From assembly GCF_007678255.1 (NCBI RefSeq), contig NZ_VEED01000001.1:372001-436000 (forward strand): DNA of 64,000 nt, in the 5' to 3' direction. Under the pieces are notes generated by a model. It was not told the DNA's origin. It saw nothing but the letters and a program-made list of their open reading frames with translations, and did no database searches. Source of the stretch: Bacillus sp. X1(2014). GTDB lineage: Bacteria > Bacillota > Bacilli > Bacillales_B > DSM-18226. How positions within the stretch are numbered: position 1 is the stretch's first letter; each line of letters opens with the position of its first letter. Made by a program: the position numbers and the translations under genes. Below, one piece after another: positions 44,408 through 54,810 of this stretch.

Positions 44408-44917
44408 TTAATTGTCGTATTTCTTTGCCCAATTATATAATTGCATTTCTGTCACTGGACCATTAAAATGCTCTCTAATGACTCCTTGCTTATCAATCAC
44501 AAAGGTTTCAGGCTGCCCTGTCACATTATACATTTTGGAGACCTTGGCATTATAATCGAATAAGTAATTCATTCCTGCTTTATTTTTCTCTGTTACTTTA
44601 TTAATCTTATCCATGGTCTCGCCGCGATTAATCATAAGAAAATTATACTTTTCCCCATATTCTTTTTGAAACGATTCTAATTCCGGTAACTCTTCCTTAC
44701 ACGGAGCGCACCATGATGCAAAATAGTTCAAGATTACAACTTCTCCCTTAAAATCACTGAGTTTGGTTGTACTTCCATCCAAATTTGGCAGTGAAAAATT
44801 ATAAGCTTTATCCCCTACATCTGTATGTTTTCCTTTTGTTACTAAACTATAACCAAAGAAACCGAACATACCTACAATAAGAATCAATACGAGTAATTTA
44901 ATGACCCGCTTGTTCAT
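44408..44917 (-). CDS. Membrane-anchored thioredoxin-like protein (CcmG/ResA type)
   Basis: 169 residues from the ATG at 44917 behind AGGAGG. N-terminal anchor (VIKLLVLILIVGMFGFFGY), then a TlpA/ResA-like thioredoxin domain outside the membrane. Redox pair Cys70/Cys73 in FASWCAPCKEE and cis-proline in TGQPETFVI. Last gene of the ccm operon, so its likely job is to reduce apocytochrome c cysteines (CcmG role). A general ResA function is possible. Confidence 0.85.
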   Translation of the reverse strand: MNKRVIKLLVLILIVGMFGFFGYSLVTKGKHTDVGDKAYNFSLPNLDGSTTKLSDFKGEVVILNYFASWCAPCKEELPELESFQKEYGEKYNFLMINRGETMDKINKVTEKNKAGMNYLFDYNAKVSKMYNVTGQPETFVIDKQGVIREHFNGPVTEMQLYNWAKKYDN

Positions 44918-44994
44918 CGTATTTCCTCCTGACACCACTAAGGTTCTATGCAAAAGGCCTGCAAATTCTACACAGGCCCTAATTTAAATCCTAA

Positions 44995-45126
44995 CTATTT
45001 TTCCAGTTGTTTTAAGAATTCAATTTCTTTCTTCAATTTTGTATGTCTCTTACCAAGAATTAGCATATATGAAAAAATAACAACCCACGCCACTGAATAC
45101 GCACTATACATAAATTCAAATCCCAT
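44995..45126 (-). CDS. ccmD: CcmD family small membrane protein
   Basis: 43 codons, ATG at 45126 behind AGGAGG. One membrane helix (YSAYSVAWVVIFSYMLILG) followed by a basic then mixed-charge cytoplasmic tail (KRHTKLKKEIEFLKQLEK). Size, topology and place directly after ccmC fit CcmD, which assists the CcmABC complex in releasing haem-loaded CcmE. Sequence of CcmD is poorly conserved, so position is most of the evidence. Confidence 0.8.
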   Translation of the reverse strand: MGFEFMYSAYSVAWVVIFSYMLILGKRHTKLKKEIEFLKQLEK

Positions 45127-45138
45127 GATTAATTCCTC

Positions 45139-45900
45139 CTATTTTTCCATGTCTTCTCGTAATTTTTCTTTATACCGCTCAACTTTAAGTTTCATTTTTT
45201 CAAAAGAAACACCTTTATGAAGAAGGTAAGAATAAAGAATGGTAAATGCTGCAAGTGAAACAAACAGGGCTATTAACATGGTACCTTCAATACCTCCACC
45301 TTTTTGGGAAGGTCCCTCACCAAATACAATTGGGTGAAACTTTGTTTGCCACCAGCGAATTGCGAAGAATACAATTGGAACGTCAGCAAACCCGATAATT
45401 CCGAATACAGCAGCCAGCCTAGCTTTTTTATCCCAAACTCCATCCATTTGTCGTATCATAATGTAGGCAATATAGATGAAAAATAGAATCAACGTTGTAA
45501 TTAACCGCGGTTCCCACACCCACCAAGTATTCCAGGAAGATTTAGCCCAAATCGGACCTGTCGTTAAAACGATAATTGTAAACACAACACCAATTTCCGC
45601 AGAAATATAGGCATAGGTGTCAAATATTCTTTTCCGCTTGATTAAAAACAAAATACTAAATACAAATGTTACAAAGAATGCCATGAATGCAAGCCATGCA
45701 GAGCTTACATGAAAATAAAAGATTTTTTGGGCAGCACCCATCGTTACTTCCTCAGCAGCAAAGATAAAGATAAAATACAGGGCAACCAGCATAGATATAA
45801 CTGTCGCAACAAATAAAATCTTTGACAGATCCAGGCTCTTTTTAACAGTTAATTCGGTTCCAGAAAGCACTGCCTTCTCCCGTTCGAGATTCATACTCAT
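45139..45900 (-). CDS. ccmC: Haem-handling protein CcmC
   Basis: 253 residues, six membrane helices. The tryptophan-rich WWD motif is WNTWWVWEPRLI, with E in place of the usual D. Histidines flanking it (KIFYFHVSSAWL and TKFHPIVFG) are expected haem ligands. CcmC loads haem on CcmE. ATG at 45900 follows GGAGG by 8 nt and lies right behind the ccmB stop. Confidence 0.9.
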   Translation of the reverse strand: MSMNLEREKAVLSGTELTVKKSLDLSKILFVATVISMLVALYFIFIFAAEEVTMGAAQKIFYFHVSSAWLAFMAFFVTFVFSILFLIKRKRIFDTYAYISAEIGVVFTIIVLTTGPIWAKSSWNTWWVWEPRLITTLILFFIYIAYIMIRQMDGVWDKKARLAAVFGIIGFADVPIVFFAIRWWQTKFHPIVFGEGPSQKGGGIEGTMLIALFVSLAAFTILYSYLLHKGVSFEKMKLKVERYKEKLREDMEK

Positions 45901-45903
45901 CAC

Positions 45904-46584
45904 TTAAACCTCCAGCACATAATCTATTAATAAGAAACAAACAACAAAGAAGATAACATCGTACGCTGTAACCAACTGAATCCACGCCACGGCACTTGAA
46001 AATTTCTCCATGTTGGTTAGGATGATTCTTGTTGCTTGAACCACACCGATTAAGATAGGTGTTGTAATCGGAAACAGCAATAGCGGAAGCAGCATTTCAC
46101 TGCTTTTAGAATTCGCTGCCAATGCAGCTAGGAAGGTACCGATGGCGATAAATCCAAAACTTCCCAGGAAAACTACTAAGATAAAATATGGAATGCTTCC
46201 ATAGAATTTGAAATCAAATAATAGGAACAAAAACGGGATCGAAACAAGTTCTACGATCAGCATCATCGTAAAATTTGAGAAAAACTTTCCTAAATAAATG
46301 CCGGCTGCCTCCATTGGTGCCACCAATAATCCTTGCATCGTATCATTCCGCTGCTCTGATATAAATGACCGGTTCAGACCTAATATTCCTGCAAAAACGA
46401 TAATTACCCAGATGACTCCAGGAATAACTGCTTTGGTAGTATTATTAGCAGGGTCAAAGGCAAAGCTAAAAACCACAATCACCAGACCAGCAAATATCAT
46501 TTGTGTGACCATTATCTGCTTTGTTTTAAGCTCGGAATATAGATCCTTTTTAGCTAGTAAGAGGGCTGTTCGAAAAAGGTTCAT
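45904..46584 (-). CDS. ccmB: CcmB, ABC-type membrane subunit of the Ccm system
   Basis: 226 residues, six helices. RSFISEQRNDTMQGLLVAPM is typical of CcmB, as is AYDVIFFVVCFLLIDYVLE at the end. Overlaps ccmA by 4 bp (ATGA). With CcmA it drives release of holo-CcmE. Confidence 0.9.
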   Translation of the reverse strand: MNLFRTALLLAKKDLYSELKTKQIMVTQMIFAGLVIVVFSFAFDPANNTTKAVIPGVIWVIIVFAGILGLNRSFISEQRNDTMQGLLVAPMEAAGIYLGKFFSNFTMMLIVELVSIPFLFLLFDFKFYGSIPYFILVVFLGSFGFIAIGTFLAALAANSKSSEMLLPLLLFPITTPILIGVVQATRIILTNMEKFSSAVAWIQLVTAYDVIFFVVCFLLIDYVLEV

Positions 46585-47285
46585 GATACTCCCTCCACTA
46601 ATTGTTCATATTTTTCAGAAACATATCCTAAGTTTTGATTTTCAATGTTAAAATCATCGACAATCTTTCCATTTTTAACAATAATAATCCTGTCGCAGAT
46701 TTCAGCCGCTTGTTTAAAATCATGCGTTACCATCAAGGTAGTCGTCCCTTTTGCTTTCATAGACAGAATCACGTTGTTCAGAATTCCAATCGCCCCTTGG
46801 TCCAACCCGGTGTGCGGTTCGTCCAATAAGAGTATTTCTGGTTCATGAACGATTGCCCTTGCGATAGCAATCCTTTGAATCATCCCGCGTGAGAAGTTCT
46901 TTACAGGTTCATTCAAAAAGAATGATAATCCTACCTCTTTAACAAGCTCCGTTGCTCGTTGTTCAACATTTTTAACACCATAAATATTTCCGAAGAATAC
47001 AATATTTTCTAACGGTGTGTAATGATCATAAAGCAAACTGGAATGGGGTAAATAACCCATTATTTTTTTTATTTTTATATGATTTTTTTTCAAATCCAAA
47101 CCATTAACCTTTATCAGTCCTGATGTAGGTTTTATTAAGGTTGCCAGGACTTTAAGAAGTGTGCTTTTCCCTGCACCATTGGGTCCGAGTATAGCAACGG
47201 TTTCTCCTTTATTTATTAAAAGGTCTACACCTCGCAAGATAAGTTTATTATCGGCTTGCTTGGTTAGCTTTTTTATTTCTATCAT
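46581..47285 (-). CDS. ccmA: CcmA, ATP-binding subunit of the Ccm system
   Basis: 234 residues. Walker A GPNGAGKSTLLKVLATL, signature NFSRGMIQRIAIARAIVHEP (SRGM instead of SGGQ, common in CcmA), and Walker B ILLLDEPHTGLDQGA. Co-transcribed with ccmB and ccmC. Confidence 0.9.
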   Translation of the reverse strand: MIEIKKLTKQADNKLILRGVDLLINKGETVAILGPNGAGKSTLLKVLATLIKPTSGLIKVNGLDLKKNHIKIKKIMGYLPHSSLLYDHYTPLENIVFFGNIYGVKNVEQRATELVKEVGLSFFLNEPVKNFSRGMIQRIAIARAIVHEPEILLLDEPHTGLDQGAIGILNNVILSMKAKGTTTLMVTHDFKQAAEICDRIIIVKNGKIVDDFNIENQNLGYVSEKYEQLVEGVS

Positions 47286-47309
47286 TTGCAGTCTCTCCCA
47301 TCCCAGCTG

Positions 47310-48305
47310 CTACTCTACAAAATTACGCAGATTTAATTTTACTTGGACAAGATGTTGTTTATAAGCTTCAAGCTTTGCGTGATATTCATCCTCTGAAAGC
47401 TTCCCATCACCGAAGGATTCTTCCAATTCAATGATCTTATCCATAATTGCTTTTTGCTTGGTCATTAATAGTTTAAATGCCTTCTCTTCCTTATCTGCTC
47501 CAAGGCGTTCGTCTAGTATTCTTGCTTTCCTTCTAAAATAGATATAATAAGAGATTCCTGCAATGACAATCGCCACTAAAATAATCAAGAACACGTGCGG
47601 GTTAAAACGGTGTAATGAAGACTGCGCCCAAATTCTTAAATGGCCAGGATTATGGAAAGCAGGAGCTGTATGTGTGACTGAGCTATTATTTCCACCTTCG
47701 CTAGTTGTTTCCGCCTTTTTGGTCTCATCTGCTGGCGGCTGAACATCTTTGTTATAAACCAGAGTAAACGTCTGGTTAGCCTTAAGTCCTTCAATACTAT
47801 AGCCAAAGTAATTCTGGTCATCAAATTTGAAGCTGCCTTGACTTGTCGCTTCAGCGCCCTTCACTTCAATACTTCCTCGTCCTTCTGGAACGAGAATCTG
47901 CATCATTTGTACGGGATAGTCATTTATTAAACCTATTTCTTTCCCCTTTGCCATTCTATAGCTGTACGGCAATACCATCGTTTGATTGGCTGGAATGGGT
48001 GTTGTTGTAATGAAACCCTTTTCTATCTCTTTAAAAGCAATTTGATTATCTAAAAAGTTAAGATCCTCAGCTCCTTCAGGGAGGGTTACATTTAAGACTG
48101 CTTCACTTTTTCCGTCACCTTTAAATTCTTGGCCAGTGGTATTTGTATAGTTAACCATATTCATCATATTCGTCCCACCGTCTTCTGTAGGACTAATCAC
48201 GATATAATGCATATCAATCGAAACTTTTGTATCTGATGCCGCTAAACTATGTAATGGGACTAACAGCATCAGCCCGAGGAAGAAAATGGTGATTTTTTTG
48301 ATCAC
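47310..48305 (-). CDS. Unrecognised membrane protein of the ccm operon (B)
   Basis: I do not recognise this family. 331 residues: signal peptide (ITIFFLGLMLLVPLHSLAAS), a beta-rich outer domain of about 200 residues, a Thr/Ser/Asn-rich stalk, one membrane helix near 240-260 (VFLIILVAIVIAGISYYIYF) and a basic, coiled-coil cytoplasmic tail ending in a SHOCT-like segment (FGDGKLSEDEYHAKLEAYKQ). Starts with GTG overlapping the previous gene by 4 bp. Same layout as the protein at 51674-52726. It may handle apocytochrome or haem, by context only. Confidence 0.75.
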   Translation of the reverse strand: MIKKITIFFLGLMLLVPLHSLAASDTKVSIDMHYIVISPTEDGGTNMMNMVNYTNTTGQEFKGDGKSEAVLNVTLPEGAEDLNFLDNQIAFKEIEKGFITTTPIPANQTMVLPYSYRMAKGKEIGLINDYPVQMMQILVPEGRGSIEVKGAEATSQGSFKFDDQNYFGYSIEGLKANQTFTLVYNKDVQPPADETKKAETTSEGGNNSSVTHTAPAFHNPGHLRIWAQSSLHRFNPHVFLIILVAIVIAGISYYIYFRRKARILDERLGADKEEKAFKLLMTKQKAIMDKIIELEESFGDGKLSEDEYHAKLEAYKQHLVQVKLNLRNFVE

Positions 48306-48676
48306 TTTCCTTCCCCCTTTTTGTTCTTATAGGTCTTCATCTGAGCTTCAATTTCTTTTTCCACTTCATCCATTAAATCTCTGTCGATATTCGTTTGCAT
48401 TAATTCTTCTTCTTCCTTCATAATACTAGCCACTTCTGTCTCATATTGTTTCTTTAAATGCTTATAATCAGCATGTGAGATTTTATCCATCTTGAACTCA
48501 AATTCTATTTCATTAAGAGTTGTCAAAAGTGCTTCTTTTGTAGCATTGATATCTTTTCCTTTGGAAGAAACCTGTATATAAGAATCCCACTTAAATAAAG
48601 GTGATAAGATTAGAAATAGACAAGCAAGCGCTAAAATGGTTGTAAAAATCATCGAAATGACGGTGATATCTTGCAT
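48302..48676 (-). CDS. CcmI N-domain-like membrane protein
   Basis: 124 residues. One membrane helix (ISMIFTTILALACLFLILSP) followed by a cytoplasmic helical region with KEALLTTLNEIEFEFKMDK and ISHADYKHLKKQYETE. This resembles the first segment of CcmI (ALL.EIEFD...GKLS..DY), without the TPR half. ATG at 48676 is 10 nt behind AGGA; the upstream GTG is too close. Its place between ccmH-like and the membrane protein gene supports a Ccm role. Confidence 0.65.
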   Translation of the reverse strand: MQDITVISMIFTTILALACLFLILSPLFKWDSYIQVSSKGKDINATKEALLTTLNEIEFEFKMDKISHADYKHLKKQYETEVASIMKEEEELMQTNIDRDLMDEVEKEIEAQMKTYKNKKGEGK

Positions 48677-48688
48677 ATTGTTCACATC

Positions 48689-49195
48689 CTAAAGATACTT
48701 TTTGCGTTCTTCATCAATGATAGATGAAAGGATTTCTCCTTCTACTTCATCCTCGGGACTTTCGTATTCCGCTACACCTTCTTCTGTTCCTTTTTTCTTC
48801 ACCCATTTACGGATGATGAAAAACACAGCAATTCCAGCAGCTCCGATTACAACAAACGGCAGGACCCAAGCGGTTAGACTAAAGCCACTTTTCTCCGGTG
48901 AGGTTAATATCTCTTCACCATAAATATTGATGTAATATTCACGTATTTTATCCTTATCCCAGCCCTTATTCATCATCTCAACTAGGTCTGCTTTAAACTC
49001 AGTTGTTAGATTACATGTATTGGGATCACATTCATAATGATCCTGGCCGCAGCCACATGTACAGGCGAACTGCTGAGCAACTGCTTTGAACTCGGCAGAT
49101 TTATAGTCAATCTGTTTTGCAGCTTCCACACGAAGGAATGATCCTTGAAAAACGACCAAGATGAGGAGAAGCCCAATATAAATTTTATTTTTCAT
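48689..49195 (-). CDS. CcmH-like protein with CxCGC motif
   Basis: 168 residues from the ATG at 49195 (MKNKIYIGLLLILVV), behind GAGGTG and 1 bp past the ccmF stop. Signal segment, a helical domain outside the membrane, then a membrane helix (WVLPFVVIGAAGIAVFFII). Instead of the usual LRCxxC it has FACTCGCGQDHYECDPNTC: cysteines 45, 47, 49, 56 and 61. The following MMNKGWDKDKIREYYINIYG is CcmH-like. Likely reduces apocytochrome or CcmE, or binds a metal. Confidence 0.78.
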   Translation of the reverse strand: MKNKIYIGLLLILVVFQGSFLRVEAAKQIDYKSAEFKAVAQQFACTCGCGQDHYECDPNTCNLTTEFKADLVEMMNKGWDKDKIREYYINIYGEEILTSPEKSGFSLTAWVLPFVVIGAAGIAVFFIIRKWVKKKGTEEGVAEYESPEDEVEGEILSSIIDEERKKYL

Positions 49196-49196
49196 A

Positions 49197-51179
49197 TTAA
49201 GACACCTCTTTGCGAACTCCTGTGTATCTCGGAGTAACATTTCCATATTTTCCATTCCAAACGGCAAACAGTGCACCAATAACTATCATGAAAGATCCGA
49301 TCCATAACCAATTCATCATTGGATTAACTTTTACAACAAAGGTAGCTTTTCCATCGTCTTCCCATGCACTCAAGACGATGTATAAGTCCTCCTTAAGTGA
49401 GGAAATAATGGCAACTTCAGAAGATGGCTGTTCCCAGTTCCCATAAAACACCTTTTCAGGCTGATATGTGCCCAGCTTTTTACCATTTTTAAATACAGTT
49501 ACATCGGCATAAACGATGTCATTAATTCCTTCTTTTTTCTGATCTAGCCGATCATAGTTGATTCGATAATCTTTTAATTCAATTGACTTTCCTAAATCGA
49601 CTGTTTTCATAGTTTGTAAATCATAATTCTGTGAACCTATAATCCCCATCGTAATAAAGGCAATTCCAAGGTGAACGATATATCCGCCATATCTGCGCCG
49701 ATTTCGAATCATTAAACGATAGAGGGCCACTAGTGGAGATTCCTTGGTCATCTTTCTTCTAGCTTTCACACCTCTATAAAACTCTAAGAAATGGGTAATT
49801 AATAATAGACTGATAACTCCATAACCAATGACTGCCCAGGCCTTTTGAATTCCTAAAACTACCATTAAAATCATTGCTAGGATCGCAAGGATAGCTGGAA
49901 TCATAAAGTTTTTCCTAAGATTTTTTACGGTAGATTTTTGCCAAGCAAGCAACGGACAAACCGCCATGATGAACATCATTGATAATAGAATCGGTGCCTC
50001 AACCTTATTAAAGAATGGAAGTCCTACCGTAACTTTTGTACCACGTACAGCTTCCGATACTAAAGGGAAAATGGTTCCCCAAAATACAGCAAAGGCGGCA
50101 CCAACAAGTAATAAATTATTGATTAAGAAGCTGCTTTCTTTAGAGACAAAGGAGTTAAATTCACCTGCACTCCTTTTAAGGAGGTTGTATCGGCTCATCA
50201 ATACATAAAGCGCTCCTATGACCGCCACGCCCATAAAGATTAAGAAGTATAATCCTAGGTTTGAATTGGCGAAGGCATGGACAGATGTCAGTACCCCGCT
50301 TCGTACAAGGAATGTACCAAATAAAGTAAGTGCATAGGAAACAATGATTAAGCTAATATTCCATATCTTTAACATGTTTTTTCGTTCCTGAATCATAACA
50401 GAGTGCAGGAATGCAGTAGCCGTTAACCACGGCATAAAGGAAGCATTTTCAACTGGATCCCACGCCCAGTATCCGCCCCATCCAAGTTCAACATAAGCCC
50501 ATTGCCCGCCAAAGATATTACCTAGACTTAAAAATAACCAAGCAATAATCGTCCAGCGTCTTGTCATTTTAATCCAGAAATCATCAACGTTTTTTAAGAT
50601 TAGTGCAGCCATCGCAAAGGCAAATGGGATGGCAAGACCAACATATCCTAAGTAAAGTGTGACTGGATGAATAATCATACCAGGGTTTTGAAGCATTGGA
50701 TTTAAGCCTTTACCTTCGATTGGAATCTCATCTAATAGAATGAAAGGTTTTGCTACAAAGCCTAGAATAAAGAAGAAGAAAACCGCATTTGCAAGTAAGA
50801 TGGCAGAAATGTATGGAACCATTGGGTTTCCTTTTAACTTCCGTGAGAAAGCAATCATAAAGGTGTAAAGAGTTAGGAAAAACGTCCACAATAACAACGA
50901 ACCGGCATTTCCAGCCCATAGTGCGGTGAGTTTATAGATGATAGGGAGTTCACTGCTTGTGTAATCATGAACATATTCATATTGAAATTGAGATGTTGCT
51001 AAAAGGTAAAATAATGATAGCATTGCAAGTGATGAACAAACCAATAATGCAATTAATCCACCTTTACCACTGTTAACGAACTTTTGATTTTTTGTGCTAA
51101 TTCCCAACGTCATAATAAGGAGAGAATAAATCGCAATGGCTAAGCCTATATAAATTGTTGCGTTGGCAAATAAATACAT
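49197..51179 (-). CDS. ccmF: Haem lyase CcmF
   Basis: 660 residues, about 14-15 membrane helices. WWD motif GWGGYWAWDPVENASFMPWL with flanking histidines (MIIHPVTLYLGYVG and WLTATAFLHSVMIQ). C-terminal half contains a soluble outer domain (KDYRINYDRLDQKKEG) and a last helix. Attaches haem to CxxCH of apocytochrome c after delivery by CcmE. ATG follows AGGTG. Upstream is ccmE. Confidence 0.93.
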   Translation of the reverse strand: MYLFANATIYIGLAIAIYSLLIMTLGISTKNQKFVNSGKGGLIALLVCSSLAMLSLFYLLATSQFQYEYVHDYTSSELPIIYKLTALWAGNAGSLLLWTFFLTLYTFMIAFSRKLKGNPMVPYISAILLANAVFFFFILGFVAKPFILLDEIPIEGKGLNPMLQNPGMIIHPVTLYLGYVGLAIPFAFAMAALILKNVDDFWIKMTRRWTIIAWLFLSLGNIFGGQWAYVELGWGGYWAWDPVENASFMPWLTATAFLHSVMIQERKNMLKIWNISLIIVSYALTLFGTFLVRSGVLTSVHAFANSNLGLYFLIFMGVAVIGALYVLMSRYNLLKRSAGEFNSFVSKESSFLINNLLLVGAAFAVFWGTIFPLVSEAVRGTKVTVGLPFFNKVEAPILLSMMFIMAVCPLLAWQKSTVKNLRKNFMIPAILAILAMILMVVLGIQKAWAVIGYGVISLLLITHFLEFYRGVKARRKMTKESPLVALYRLMIRNRRRYGGYIVHLGIAFITMGIIGSQNYDLQTMKTVDLGKSIELKDYRINYDRLDQKKEGINDIVYADVTVFKNGKKLGTYQPEKVFYGNWEQPSSEVAIISSLKEDLYIVLSAWEDDGKATFVVKVNPMMNWLWIGSFMIVIGALFAVWNGKYGNVTPRYTGVRKEVS

Positions 51180-51204
51180 TTCGTCACCTTCTTAAGTTAG
51201 CCTG

Positions 51205-51657
51205 TTATTTTTCTTTCGGTGTTTTATTTAACTTATCTTTATGTGTTTCTGGATCGTAATCTTTGATGTCTTTTCCCTCGTATTTAGATGGGCACCTTGT
51301 TTTAACTGTCTCAGCAACGAATGTGTTCTTTTTAGTTGGTGCCCCTTGGAGGATCGTGATCACACCTTCTGAGAAATTATCTGGCTTAGTTCCGTTGTGA
51401 ATGACGTGCATAACATTACCGTCGTTATCTTTCACATCAAATTTCAATTCAATTTTGTTTGCATCCCATTTAATCGAGTCTTCTATTAGTAAACCCTCAA
51501 CTGTAACAAAATCATTTTTATGTTGTTCTTGAGTAGCCAAAAGCTCCTTCATTGTTAACTCAACACCACTTGATCCAGGAGTTGCTGCCATCAAAAGGAA
51601 AACAATGGCACCCGCAATAATAAACCCACCTAGCATTACAATCGTATTTTTTTTCAT
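51205..51657 (-). CDS. ccmE: Haem chaperone CcmE, CxxxY variant
   Basis: 150 residues from the ATG at 51657 (MKKNTIVMLGGFIIAG), 9 nt behind GAGGTG. Membrane anchor, then an OB-fold (NDFVTVEGLLIEDSIKW, GVITILQGAPTKKNTFVAE). The haem-linking residue is Cys122 in KTRCPSKYEGK, not histidine of the usual HxxxY. The same variant is known from archaea and some bacteria (System I*). Confidence 0.9.
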   Translation of the reverse strand: MKKNTIVMLGGFIIAGAIVFLLMAATPGSSGVELTMKELLATQEQHKNDFVTVEGLLIEDSIKWDANKIELKFDVKDNDGNVMHVIHNGTKPDNFSEGVITILQGAPTKKNTFVAETVKTRCPSKYEGKDIKDYDPETHKDKLNKTPKEK

Positions 51658-51673
51658 TTTACTCATCACCTCA

Positions 51674-52726
51674 TTAGATTAATTTTTTCATTTCCTCTTC
51701 GTACATTTCCTGGTCAATCTTTCCTGTTAACAACTTTTTGCGTAATTCTTTCTTTTCCTCAGAATTTGCTATTTTGTTGTCCTTTTTTGCCGATTGAGTT
51801 TGGTTCCTGGGTTGTGTTTTAGTTTTTTTGTTAACCTTAGACGCTGAGTGCGAATTTCCTTTTAAGCCTAGGAACACAAAGAGACCTGCTATAACTATCG
51901 CAATTCCAATGATTGCTGCACCACCGAGTCCGATAATAGGACGTTTGGAAGTATTGGATGCTCCACCATTTTTAACAACTTGATCTGTTGCAGTTACACC
52001 ACTATGGTTTTCATCATTTGGCGGCTGCTTTTTGTTTATAGCCTCCATCGTAGATTCAGTACCATCCTTTTTATACGAGAAGGAGTATTTTAAGCCTGCA
52101 TCAGCTTTTACATTTTGGTATTGGTAGTAATAGAGCTCTTCTCCATATTCATTTTTCGAATTGTTCTCTGCTTTTGGCTCAATTTCAATTTCCTTAGCAT
52201 CCATGGGAGCATAAAAAATCACATCTAAAAGATCGATATTAGCTTTATTTTTAAGCTCATATGTAAAAGTCTTGTTGTCCTTCACATTGATCGACTTAGT
52301 ATAGTACTCAATAACAAATTCGTAAGTTTCATTATTCTTAATCGCCTTAGCTGGCTTCCAAGTAATAAGTCCTTTTTCTTTATCAACATCATACGGACGT
52401 TGTACTTCAGGCTTATCTTTTTCAGGGAATTCTGCTACCAAGAAGGCTTCAAAGCCTTTATCCATTGCTGGAACGGCAATCTCTATCTTGCCATCATAAT
52501 CTTGACCACTTTTATTGGTAATGGTTCCGTACTGGCCAACTAATAAGGACGGAGTATCACGCGACCAACCTTCGGGATAATCAAACTCTGGCATTACTTG
52601 AATCTGCATTTCCTTAAAAGGAAATTTTTCTGCATGAAAGGCTGTTTCAGCACTAGCCTCTGGCAAAATGAAATTCGTTAAAAATGATGCGATTACGAAT
52701 AATGCCAACCACTTTTTCTTTAGCAT
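51674..52726 (-). CDS. Unrecognised membrane protein, first gene of the ccm operon (A)
   Basis: I do not recognise the family. 350 residues: signal peptide (WLALFVIASFLTNFILPEAS), outer beta-rich domain to about residue 215, a linker rich in N and K, one membrane helix near 265-290 (IIGLGGAAIIGIAIVIAGLF), then a very basic stretch (KVNKKTKTQPRNQTQ) and a SHOCT-like end (LLTGKIDQEMYEEEMKKLI). Same layout as the protein at 47310-48305. AAGGAGG precedes the ATG. Probably a Ccm accessory factor. Confidence 0.75.
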   Translation of the reverse strand: MLKKKWLALFVIASFLTNFILPEASAETAFHAEKFPFKEMQIQVMPEFDYPEGWSRDTPSLLVGQYGTITNKSGQDYDGKIEIAVPAMDKGFEAFLVAEFPEKDKPEVQRPYDVDKEKGLITWKPAKAIKNNETYEFVIEYYTKSINVKDNKTFTYELKNKANIDLLDVIFYAPMDAKEIEIEPKAENNSKNEYGEELYYYQYQNVKADAGLKYSFSYKKDGTESTMEAINKKQPPNDENHSGVTATDQVVKNGGASNTSKRPIIGLGGAAIIGIAIVIAGLFVFLGLKGNSHSASKVNKKTKTQPRNQTQSAKKDNKIANSEEKKELRKKLLTGKIDQEMYEEEMKKLI

Positions 52727-52903: not shown

Positions 52904-52942
52904 CAAAAAAAGACCTGAATCCACTTGATAGATTCAGGTCTT
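52904..52942 (-). terminator. Terminator of the selenoprotein/cytochrome c operon
   Basis: AAGACCTGAATC and GATTCAGGTCTT form a 12-bp perfect stem with a 9-nt loop, followed by seven T residues on the minus strand. It separates this operon from the ccm operon. Confidence 0.88.
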
Positions 52943-52960
52943 ACAACTATATTTCATTTA

Positions 52961-53611
52961 TTACTTCTCCAATGATCGGATATAAGTAACAATATCAGTA
53001 ATATCCTTTTCTTTCAGTTGACGTGCACCTTCTAAACCTTTTAATGAAGGTCCCATCCGTGTTTCTTCACGACCATACGCTGCATCAATCCAAATTTGTT
53101 TATCAGTAGTGTATTTCAAATATTGTGGATTAGAAAGTGCCGTTCCCATTTTCTCCTTACCAACACCAGCTTCACCATGGCAGTTAAGGCAATATAAGTT
53201 AAATTGTGCCTTCCCACGCTCAGGATCACCAGAAATTGTTTTTGGGGCATCAAATTCTATTTCCTTTGTTTGCCAGTCTCTTATAAAAGCAACAAGATTG
53301 TTTAATTCCTTGTTTGATAGTCTTGGACCATAGGCAGGCATAACTGTGCCATCTCTTCCATACTTTACATAATTATAAAGATCTTTATCGGATACATTGC
53401 TTAAAAAATTCTGGCTATTTAAGGTTGTCCCAGTTTTTGAGCCTTCTCCTTTTCCTGTCTCACCGTGACAAGAGATACAATTTTTTTTGTATATTATCTC
53501 ACCTGCGGCAATAGCCTCTGACTTCTTGCTATTGAATATGCCACTATTACTTATACAGACAATAATACCAATAATAATCAAAATATAAAATCCGATTAAT
53601 ATTTTTTTCAT
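52961..53611 (-). CDS. Membrane-anchored diheme cytochrome c
   Basis: 216 residues: N-terminal membrane anchor (ILIGFYILIIIGIIVCI), then two class I cytochrome c domains. Haem motifs are CISCH (Cys45, Cys48, His49) and CLNCH (Cys141, Cys144, His145); likely axial methionines are Met91 (TVMPAYGPRLS) and Met186 (RMGPSLKG). Faces outside. ATG is 10 bp after the stop of the PCYCGC lipoprotein gene, behind AAGGGG. A probable client of the adjacent Ccm system. Electron partner unknown. Confidence 0.92.
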   Translation of the reverse strand: MKKILIGFYILIIIGIIVCISNSGIFNSKKSEAIAAGEIIYKKNCISCHGETGKGEGSKTGTTLNSQNFLSNVSDKDLYNYVKYGRDGTVMPAYGPRLSNKELNNLVAFIRDWQTKEIEFDAPKTISGDPERGKAQFNLYCLNCHGEAGVGKEKMGTALSNPQYLKYTTDKQIWIDAAYGREETRMGPSLKGLEGARQLKEKDITDIVTYIRSLEK

Positions 53612-53621
53612 GGGTTACCCC

Positions 53622-54071
53622 TTACTTAGGCTCGGGTGTTGGGGTTGGCTCCCCAATATCTTCATATTTTCTTGTTAATAAATCGTAAATTTTCGCAGGG
53701 CTTTTACCATTTAAATGCATTTCTACCGCCTCCCGGGCGATATTGACACAAGTGTCTCAAGCTATACCATGCGAATCCCATTCTTCTACAGCATTTTCTG
53801 GCCCCATACCTTTAATGAAGCAATCAAGGTTACTTTTATGACCATCATTTACACATCCACAATAGCACGGAACTTGGGCTACCACTTCTGGATATGTTGC
53901 TGCCATAACATATGTTTCTTGGATTTTTTCAGATGTATTCAGAACAAAATCTGGTAATGGCGAATGTTTTTTATCAAGTTTCCAAGTTTCATCACTTAGT
54001 TTGGAACTACAGCCAGCTGCAACAATGGCAAACAAAATCCCAAGGAACAAGAGAGATGTAATTCGTTTCAT
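53622..54071 (-). CDS. PCYCGC lipoprotein, probable selenoprotein (in-frame TGA at 53757-53759)
   Basis: Codons 1-104 give a lipoprotein: signal peptide with lipobox VAAGC (Cys21), then QVPCYCGCVNDGHKSNLDC (Cys69, 71, 73, 84) and EEWDSHGIA. Codon 105 is TGA. The frame continues for 44 codons: DTCVNIAREAVEMHLNGKS, then PAKIYDLLTRKYEDIGEP and TPTPEPK, ending in TAA at 53622. PCYCGC-family proteins, as I recall them, have a CxxC pair where UDTC stands and a similar Pro/Thr-rich end. A SECIS-like hairpin follows the TGA. I read codon 105 as selenocysteine; total 149 residues. Alternatives: true stop, pseudogene or sequencing error. Needs selABC and selD elsewhere in the genome. Confidence 0.75.
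53724..53742 (-). promoter_or_regulatory. SECIS-like hairpin after the in-frame TGA
   Basis: RNA (minus strand) UAUCGCC, loop CGGGA and GGCGGUA form a 7-bp stem with one U-G pair. The loop begins 22 nt after the TGA and has G at its second position, within the bacterial SECIS rules I know (loop 16-37 nt away, G among the first two loop bases). Confidence 0.6.
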
Positions 54072-54094
54072 TATCTGTTGCCCCCCTTCCCTAT

Positions 54095-54221: not shown

Positions 54222-54719
54222 TCACATATTCATCATTTCATGGCTAGAAGTTGAACCGGTACCAAGTGATGGATCAATCATCCCAAATATCATTGCGATG
54301 TGTGCAACTACCAGAAAAATACTTACAAAGATAGCATGAATTTTCAGCTTTTCTTCCTCCGATTTATTTCTAAAAATAATTCCTAAATCAAGCAGTGCCA
54401 TGCCAAGGAATGGGATAATTCCTAGTAAATAGAAAGTAACAGCAACAACGTCAATCCAACCTTTCCATTCTCCGTTAACAGTTAATGGAATGTATGCTGT
54501 TCTCATAAGGTAAATAAAGATTCCAGTAAAATAAAAACCTGCAAAGATACCTGTTACTTTATTCAATTTTTTTAGTGCACCATCTAATTTCCTTGTAAAC
54601 AATATAGCTATTTCCGAGATCGCAAGGATTTCTGCACAAATGACTGGAACCGCCATAAAAATTAATAAATTCCAAGGTTGATTGTCTGCTAACAATCCCA
54701 TATAATGCGTCATATTCAT
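54222..54719 (-). CDS. Four-helix membrane protein of unknown function
   Basis: 165 residues with four hydrophobic helices (LLIFMAVPVICAEILAI; FAGFYFTGIFIYLM; VAVTFYLLGIIPFLGMALL; HAIFVSIFLVVAHIAMIFG). Met/His-rich ends: MNMTHYMG at the start and SSHEMMNM at the end, which hints at metal binding. The second ATG (54719) is 9 nt behind GAGGAG; the first is only 3 nt away. About 150 bp upstream of the lipoprotein gene, same strand; could share its function. Family not recognised with certainty. Confidence 0.7.
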   Translation of the reverse strand: MNMTHYMGLLADNQPWNLLIFMAVPVICAEILAISEIAILFTRKLDGALKKLNKVTGIFAGFYFTGIFIYLMRTAYIPLTVNGEWKGWIDVVAVTFYLLGIIPFLGMALLDLGIIFRNKSEEEKLKIHAIFVSIFLVVAHIAMIFGMIDPSLGTGSTSSHEMMNM

Positions 54720-54810
54720 ATTCATCTTCTCCTCTAGTTTTTTCTACACCCTTAATGTAGTGAAAAAGTGTGCAGAAACTTAGGAGAAACTATGGAGAAA
54801 TTGTTAAAAA

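Follow-up and report, generated by a model that had tools for sequence, protein, structure and literature searches.

A probable selenocysteine-containing PCYCGC lipoprotein beside cytochrome c maturation genes in Neobacillus, and the likely exchange of its redox segment for a cysteine form

Does the in-frame TGA at codon 105 of a small lipoprotein gene, located next to a cytochrome gene in a Bacillus-type genome, end the protein or specify selenocysteine (Sec), and what would a selenoprotein do at this place? We addressed this question in a window of 64,000 nucleotides, which is the whole stretch of DNA analysed here (Bacillus sp. X1(2014), contig NZ_VEED01000001.1, positions 372,001 to 436,000), and in corresponding loci of related genomes. 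We put the probability that the TGA-containing gene encodes a selenoprotein at about 0.96. The wider explanation, which combines a Sec lipoprotein with an exchangeable cassette and a cytochrome role, is in our judgment probable.

A conserved TGA codon within an open reading frame

When the locus was re-read, the frame starting with the ATG at 54071 on the minus strand reached TGA at codon 105 (53759-53757) and stayed open for 44 more codons up to a TAA (53624-53622), just as the original prediction had described. The diheme cytochrome gene was said to begin 10 bp past the TAA, and its ATG is indeed at 53611. The locus contains the following features.

53622..54071, minus strand: predicted gene for a PCYCGC-family selenoprotein; 149 codons and a TAA stop, codon 105 being TGA
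53757..53759, minus strand: in-frame UGA, predicted selenocysteine 105 (TGA in 38/52 copies, Cys in 14/52)
53748..53759, minus strand: predicted UxxC redox motif U105-D-T-C108 (C105 and C108 invariant in an 80-member alignment)
53853..53870, minus strand: PCYCGC motif, residues 68-73 (P68, C69, C71, G72 and C73 invariant in alignment A1)
54009..54071, minus strand: predicted lipoprotein signal peptide up to lipobox Cys21 (VAAGC; from sequence, C21 invariant in A1)
54081..54090, minus strand: ribosome-binding-like GGAAGGGGGG located 5' of the ATG (from sequence)
52961..53611, minus strand: diheme c-type cytochrome, 216 aa (PF13442 and PF00034 matches)
54222..54725, minus strand: DUF6803 membrane protein, upstream of the selenoprotein gene (PF20617, 247.8 bits)

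With the TGA read as cysteine, the protein matches the Pfam PCYCGC family (PF13798) with 101 bits (E 7.9e-29; gathering cut-off 25), and with the codon read as a residue the match extends as far as the last profile position (153/153); the 104-residue short form scores 59.9 bits. In alignment A1, which holds 80 PCYCGC family members and in which the window TGA was entered as C, residues C21, P68, C69, C71, G72, C73, H78, C84, C105 and C108 are invariant. The protein is probably lipidated at Cys21, judging by its lipobox.

Matches were found in 48 of 60 relatives. Among 52 aligned copies (the window, one copy for each matching genome and three extra ones, with a 58-residue fragment in G006 left out), codon 105 is TGA in 38 and a cysteine codon (TGT or TGC) in 14, and no other codon occurs. 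Because the copies show these two states only, the TGA cannot be put down to chance or to a sequencing error, and the earlier statement that family members have cysteine here is borne out. Within Neobacillus, 55 of 61 genomes have a match at E 1e-30, with one in-frame TGA in 48 and none in 7, where the TGA position was read directly in the translated loci and the remaining genus genomes were scored by an automated in-frame TGA count. With one-TGA copies in 48 of the 61 genomes, the predicted selenoprotein is not rare in this genus, which corrects the expectation that it would be unusual. The text after the TGA had also been described as protein-like, and a comparison of the window with strain MM2020_1 agrees with this description: over the 44 codons, 43 residues are kept, and synonymous differences are seen in 9 of 42 same-residue codons (Met and Trp left out).

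It could be argued that the TGA is a real stop, with the 104-residue protein as the product and the downstream frame as a leftover, and 73 of 90 database homologues do end at the TGA (by length 74 are short, but the ending of one does not fit this site). That annotation would call the short form had been foreseen, and because these 73 entries cut the gene short, the redox motif is missing from its annotation. Against a real stop, the post-TGA protein is conserved in 37 of the 38 TGA copies (the exception is a second copy in G033, whose end reads as frame-shifted), the Cys relatives are full length, so that the TGA position is not a common end point of the homologues, and the stem described below covaries. 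We consider a real stop extremely improbable and retain the selenoprotein reading.

Two further observations concern copy number. The selenoprotein gene is tandemly duplicated in Neobacillus rhizosphaerae (L015/L097), with TGA in both copies, and G052 encodes two members of the family, one with Cys and one with TGA, at separate places in one genome (L056, L060).

The selenoprotein form of PF13798 is already known, since it is listed in NCBIfam, PMC13188914 and PMC9312934; this is a second correction to the original prediction. NCBIfam holds a "CYCXC family (seleno)protein" model (NF041379), against which the window protein scores 72.4 bits, under the curated cut-off of 90. CYCXC family protein (OS_HP4; PF13798, UxxC) is among the prokaryotic selenoprotein families listed in PMC13188914, OS_HP4 with UxxC is listed in PMC9312934 as well, and the passages on OS_HP4/CYCXC in these two papers give no function or genomic setting. 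The window protein is like OS_HP4/CYCXC in its Pfam family and in its UxxC arrangement. It differs in being a Neobacillus lipoprotein that is encoded beside cytochrome genes and falls below the NF041379 cut-off, and in that near-identical strains have a cysteine version of one of its segments. In the open PMC literature we found no paper joining PCYCGC and selenocysteine, and none joining Neobacillus and selenocysteine. In a survey of Parageobacillus lipoproteins, the PCYCGC lipoprotein is among those without a confident function (PMC13068155).

A SECIS-like stem-loop and the selenocysteine machinery

53724..53742, minus strand: predicted SECIS stem-loop with a 7-bp stem and the 5-nt loop CGGGA (from MFE structure, covariation and motif distribution)

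The stem is formed by arms at 53742-53736 and 53730-53724, which enclose the loop CGGGA at 53735-53731; the loop consensus is CG[G/U]GA. Limits given for bSECIS elements in PMC13188914 are a loop of 3-9 nt, a stem of 4-16 bp, a distance of 16-37 nt from the UGA, a G in the first two loop positions and an MFE of at most -7.5. The window element lies inside these limits, with a 5-nt loop, 7 bp, 21 nt from the UGA and an MFE of -12.5 kcal/mol (45 nt from UGA). An Rfam search gave no match at the SECIS region. The motif GCCCG(G/T)GAGGC, 18 nt past the TGA, is present in 38/38 TGA copies, where it reads in frame as codons +7 to +10, GCC-CG(G/T)-GAG-GC(N). It is found in 0/14 Cys copies, of which 10 belong to a distant Cys clade, so that the fair comparison is with the four genus Cys copies, and there the count is 0/4.

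Conservation of the stem was evaluated in 29 distinct sequences. It is paired in 92.6% of cells, compared with 29-66% at slid positions. Where the third bases of codons +6 and +10 pair with each other, 23 sequences have C-G, 3 have U-A and 3 have A-U, all changes at this pair being synonymous. The outermost pair fails in 10 of the 29. The observed paired percentage, double-changed cell count and covariation score were never matched in 500 shuffles. For the remaining two measures of the five, double-changed pairs and further pair types, 129 and 147 of the 500 shuffles did as well, because three stem pairs never vary.

Since codon 105 is only ever TGA or Cys, and every TGA copy carries a stem-loop motif that fits a SECIS and covaries at one base pair, we propose that SelB and tRNA-Sec would insert Sec at this codon. 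Translation through UGA 105 would yield a lipid-anchored selenoprotein of 149 residues, and Sec is, on the evidence of sequence, the residue most probably inserted.

A search for the sel genes in the nearest genome, Neobacillus sp. SuZ13 (G001, NZ_CP126107.1), found selA, selB, selD and tRNA-Sec all present, the tRNA-Sec scoring 63.3 bits (cut-off 47) with anticodon TCA. Judging from its genus, the window strain probably has the sel genes as well. The tRNA-Sec exceeded the cut-off in 14 of 18 further genomes, that is, in all 10 same-genus genomes and in the 4 others that have a TGA copy, and the 4 genomes without it were picked for lacking a full SelB. Above cut-off, SelB is encoded in 50 of 60 genomes and SelD in 52 of 60, each count including 36/36 same-genus genomes, and SelA is present in 10/10 genomes tested. 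All 35 genomes of the 60-genome set that have a TGA copy have SelB above cut-off; 5 of the 10 SelB-less genomes carry the PCYCGC gene, with Cys in 5/5. SelD itself carries an in-frame TGA in 36/36 same-genus matches, and another Sec user, FdhA with one in-frame TGA, is found in 33 of 36 genus genomes among the matches listed. FdhA and SelD resemble the PCYCGC protein in having an in-frame TGA in Neobacillus and differ from it in being enzymes of other families. One genome, G035, has no FdhA with TGA among the matches listed, and it retains SelA, SelB, SelD with TGA and tRNA-Sec despite its Cys PCYCGC gene.

UGA readthrough occurs in bacilli, and the TGA could be read through by a near-cognate or recoded (Trp) tRNA instead of as Sec. 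The residue that alternates with TGA is however Cys in 14/14 copies and never Trp, and both the SECIS-like stem and the presence of SelB in 35/35 TGA-bearing genomes of the set argue against such readthrough. We give it next to no credence, and selenocysteine remains the preferred meaning of the codon.

Divergence of the redox segment among close relatives

53672..53891, minus strand: candidate Sec/Cys cassette of ~220 nt, about nt 180-400 of the gene, replaced in close relatives (ends approximate)

N. drentensis NBRC 102427 (Cys) and Bacillus sp. MM2020_1 (TGA) have a median identity of 97.5% over 12.4 kb (201/206 comparison windows alignable), but only 67-73% over nt 180-420 of the gene, the lowest values of the 12.4-kb stretch. 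Our 64,000-nt window and Bacillus sp. AFS073361 (Cys) likewise have a median of 93.3% and a tract of 68-76%. In the TGA/TGA control pairs, no alignable comparison window fell below 92% and 88%, respectively. The same contrast is seen in codons that encode the same residue in both strains, when the tract (codons 61-133 minus 105) is set against the flanks (codons 1-50 and 134-149 plus the cytochrome gene): between NBRC 102427 and MM2020_1 such codons are identical in 21/51 versus 245/261 cases (Fisher p 6e-17), and between the window and AFS073361 in 25/52 versus 226/259 (p 3e-9). In pairwise comparison of 36 loci, the tract is 18-29 points lower in 5/5 Cys/TGA pairs with a downstream identity of at least 92%, these five pairs standing for about three separate events, and such a drop is seen in 0/8 TGA/TGA pairs. 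We consider it very probable that the ~220-nt tract was swapped by short-tract recombination, in which a self-contained stretch bearing the motifs, the UGA and the SECIS would be exchanged for a Cys version.

Tract divergence could instead reflect fast evolution after a Sec-to-Cys mutation, with no recombination involved. One genome agrees with such a course: the tract of G035 is 82-84% like that of the Sec strains G010 and G014, its flanks (the parts compared downstream and the gene ends) are 80-89% alike, and it retains half of the SECIS (GCCCGGGAUGC). Because this tract is as similar to TGA strains as its surroundings are and half of the element survives, Cys likely arose in G035 by mutation in place. 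Mutation at the codon followed by rapid change does not, however, account for the replacement of synonymous codons as well (21/51 identical in the tract versus 245/261 in the flanks) or for the sharp ends of the tract. As the cause of the tract divergence we find fast evolution very improbable, and we prefer recombination.

When the whole-gene tree is rooted at its midpoint, the four Cys forms of the genus fall within a TGA clade, and for this reason Sec-to-Cys is the likely direction of change there; the segment tree is poorly resolved and compatible with a single origin of the Cys forms. According to PMC13188914, Sec-to-Cys changes seldom occur in bacteria, the documented cases being mainly FdhA and SelD, and aerobes rarely keep selenoproteins. 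The probable exchange of a motif-bearing tract of ~220 nt, with UGA and SECIS or with Cys, between near-identical strains appears to be new. One gene occurs here in both the Sec and the Cys state, in strains whose surrounding sequence has a median identity of 93-97.5%, and the exchange unit is confined to ~220 nt. Such strains offer a naturally matched comparison of what is gained from selenium.

Between two species groups, identical same-residue codons number 51/68 in the tract versus 45/61 in the rest of the gene (codons 1-50 and 134-149) for TGA alleles, and 44/66 versus 45/62 for Cys alleles. Similar divergence of tract and rest fits an old dimorphism sorted across species, although two groups are few. 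That a self-contained Sec cassette and a Cys cassette are interchangeable redox segments of a CcmH-related cytochrome c maturation factor, swap by short-tract recombination in a gene that is otherwise nearly identical, and persist across species as a dimorphism is a speculative proposal, and we lean against it. If it is true, strains would gain or drop the selenium dependence of the PCYCGC protein in one step.

Genomic neighborhood, relation to CcmH and possible function

52910..52942, minus strand: terminator-like hairpin that separates the ccm genes from the cytochrome gene
44408..52726, minus strand: System I cytochrome c maturation cluster (domain matches), with the members below
51674, minus strand: h51674 (no Pfam match)
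51205, minus strand: CcmE
49197, minus strand: CcmF
48689-49279, minus strand: CcmH
48302, minus strand: h48302 (no Pfam match)
47310, minus strand: h47310 (no Pfam match)
46581, minus strand: CcmA-like
45904, minus strand: CcmB
45139, minus strand: CcmC-like
44408, minus strand: TlpA/ResA-like

Downstream of the predicted selenoprotein gene follow the diheme cytochrome, the terminator-like hairpin and the ccm cluster, a System I cluster in a Bacillaceae genome. CcmF is encoded in 34/36 Neobacillus genomes of the set, versus 3/24 genomes of other families of the order. In 33 of the 34, the CcmF domain match shares contig and strand with an intact PCYCGC gene (TGA or Cys), the two lying 3.4-4.0 kb apart, and in the 34th, G006, a 58-residue PCYCGC fragment is left near CcmF. 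G003 has neither CcmF nor a PCYCGC gene, G034 keeps the TGA gene without CcmF and without an adjoining cytochrome, and Mesobacillus harenae has the TGA gene together with the cytochrome but no adjoining ccm genes. Reading the loci outside the genus group by eye places the gene close to copper or arsenic genes, or to unrelated ones. The place of the PCYCGC gene before the System I ccm cluster in Neobacillus appears to be a new observation.

We compared the PCYCGC family with CcmH, which is also encoded in the window. Aligned by hhalign without a motif filter, 80 PCYCGC and 40 CcmH proteins gave a probability of 96% (E 4.7e-9) and a score of 57.6, where 100 column shuffles reached 27.1 at most. 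Masking every Cys left a probability of 54% and a score of 32.2, and here the highest value among 100 column shuffles was 19.0. For 27 CcmH proteins from outside the genus the probability was 74%, and 35% after Cys masking, with a score of 30.7 versus a maximum of 21.2 in shuffles. A narrow Neobacillus CcmH profile gave 77% against PCYCGC and fell to 1% on Cys masking. The PCYCGC protein has no match to CcmH/NrfF (PF03918) at E 1e-3 (cut-off 25), and no CcmH was among the matches listed in a structure search (Foldseek, VIA). What it shares with PF03918 is a remote profile similarity that spans the CxCGC region together with the helical part after it, and the CcmH of the window (48689-49279) has the pattern CTCGCGQDH..C..C. 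Unlike CcmH, the PCYCGC protein is a predicted lipoprotein, carries UxxC and has no membrane helix after the domain. A remote relation of the two domains is supported, not proven, by these profile comparisons, and it appears to be new.

A thiol-redox pair is usually located at the start of a helix in thioredoxin-like and related enzymes. In an AF2 model with Cys at 105 (pLDDT 90.3), residue 105 immediately precedes helix 106-120. Sec105 and Cys108 would act as a UxxC redox couple on the outer side of the membrane, located where a long helix begins, in a domain distantly related to CcmH. Together with the CYCGC cysteines, the protein would act on the CXXCH thiols of apocytochrome c, either reducing or guarding them, with the co-encoded diheme cytochrome as first substrate, in a step that comes before heme is attached by the System I Ccm proteins, whose genes follow directly downstream. 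Counting against this role are the terminator-like hairpin, which parts the selenoprotein-cytochrome pair from the ccm genes, the state of G034, the other settings outside the genus and the lack of CcmH among the structure matches listed. From the neighborhood as a whole, we hold a function as a thiol/selenol factor in c-type cytochrome maturation to be possible, at somewhat less than an even chance, and take metal handling as its main rival. A CcmH-like thiol factor for c-type cytochromes would be a functional lead for the PCYCGC family.

As a metal-handling lipoprotein, the protein would use its CYCGC/H/C cluster and Sec to bind or pass copper or another soft metal, and the cytochrome neighborhood would be incidental. 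H78 and seven Cys positions (lipobox Cys21 included) are invariant, as suits such a cluster, and outside the ccm setting the neighbors, read by eye, include csoR/copA-like genes in G037, an arsenic cluster in G006, a Sco-like gene in G045 and a metal P-type ATPase-like gene in G058. Within the genus, on the other hand, the gene stays with the diheme cytochrome and the ccm genes, UxxC pairs located where a helix begins are characteristic of redox enzymes, and the domain bears similarity to CcmH. We regard metal handling as unlikely, and somewhat favor the cytochrome role.

In G006, the 58-residue gene fragment lies at the ccm site (C1:3758909-3759082), and a more distant TGA copy is encoded at C1:4644082-4644522 beside the arsenic cluster. 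The second copy in G033 is of this distant TGA type, and its end reads as frame-shifted.
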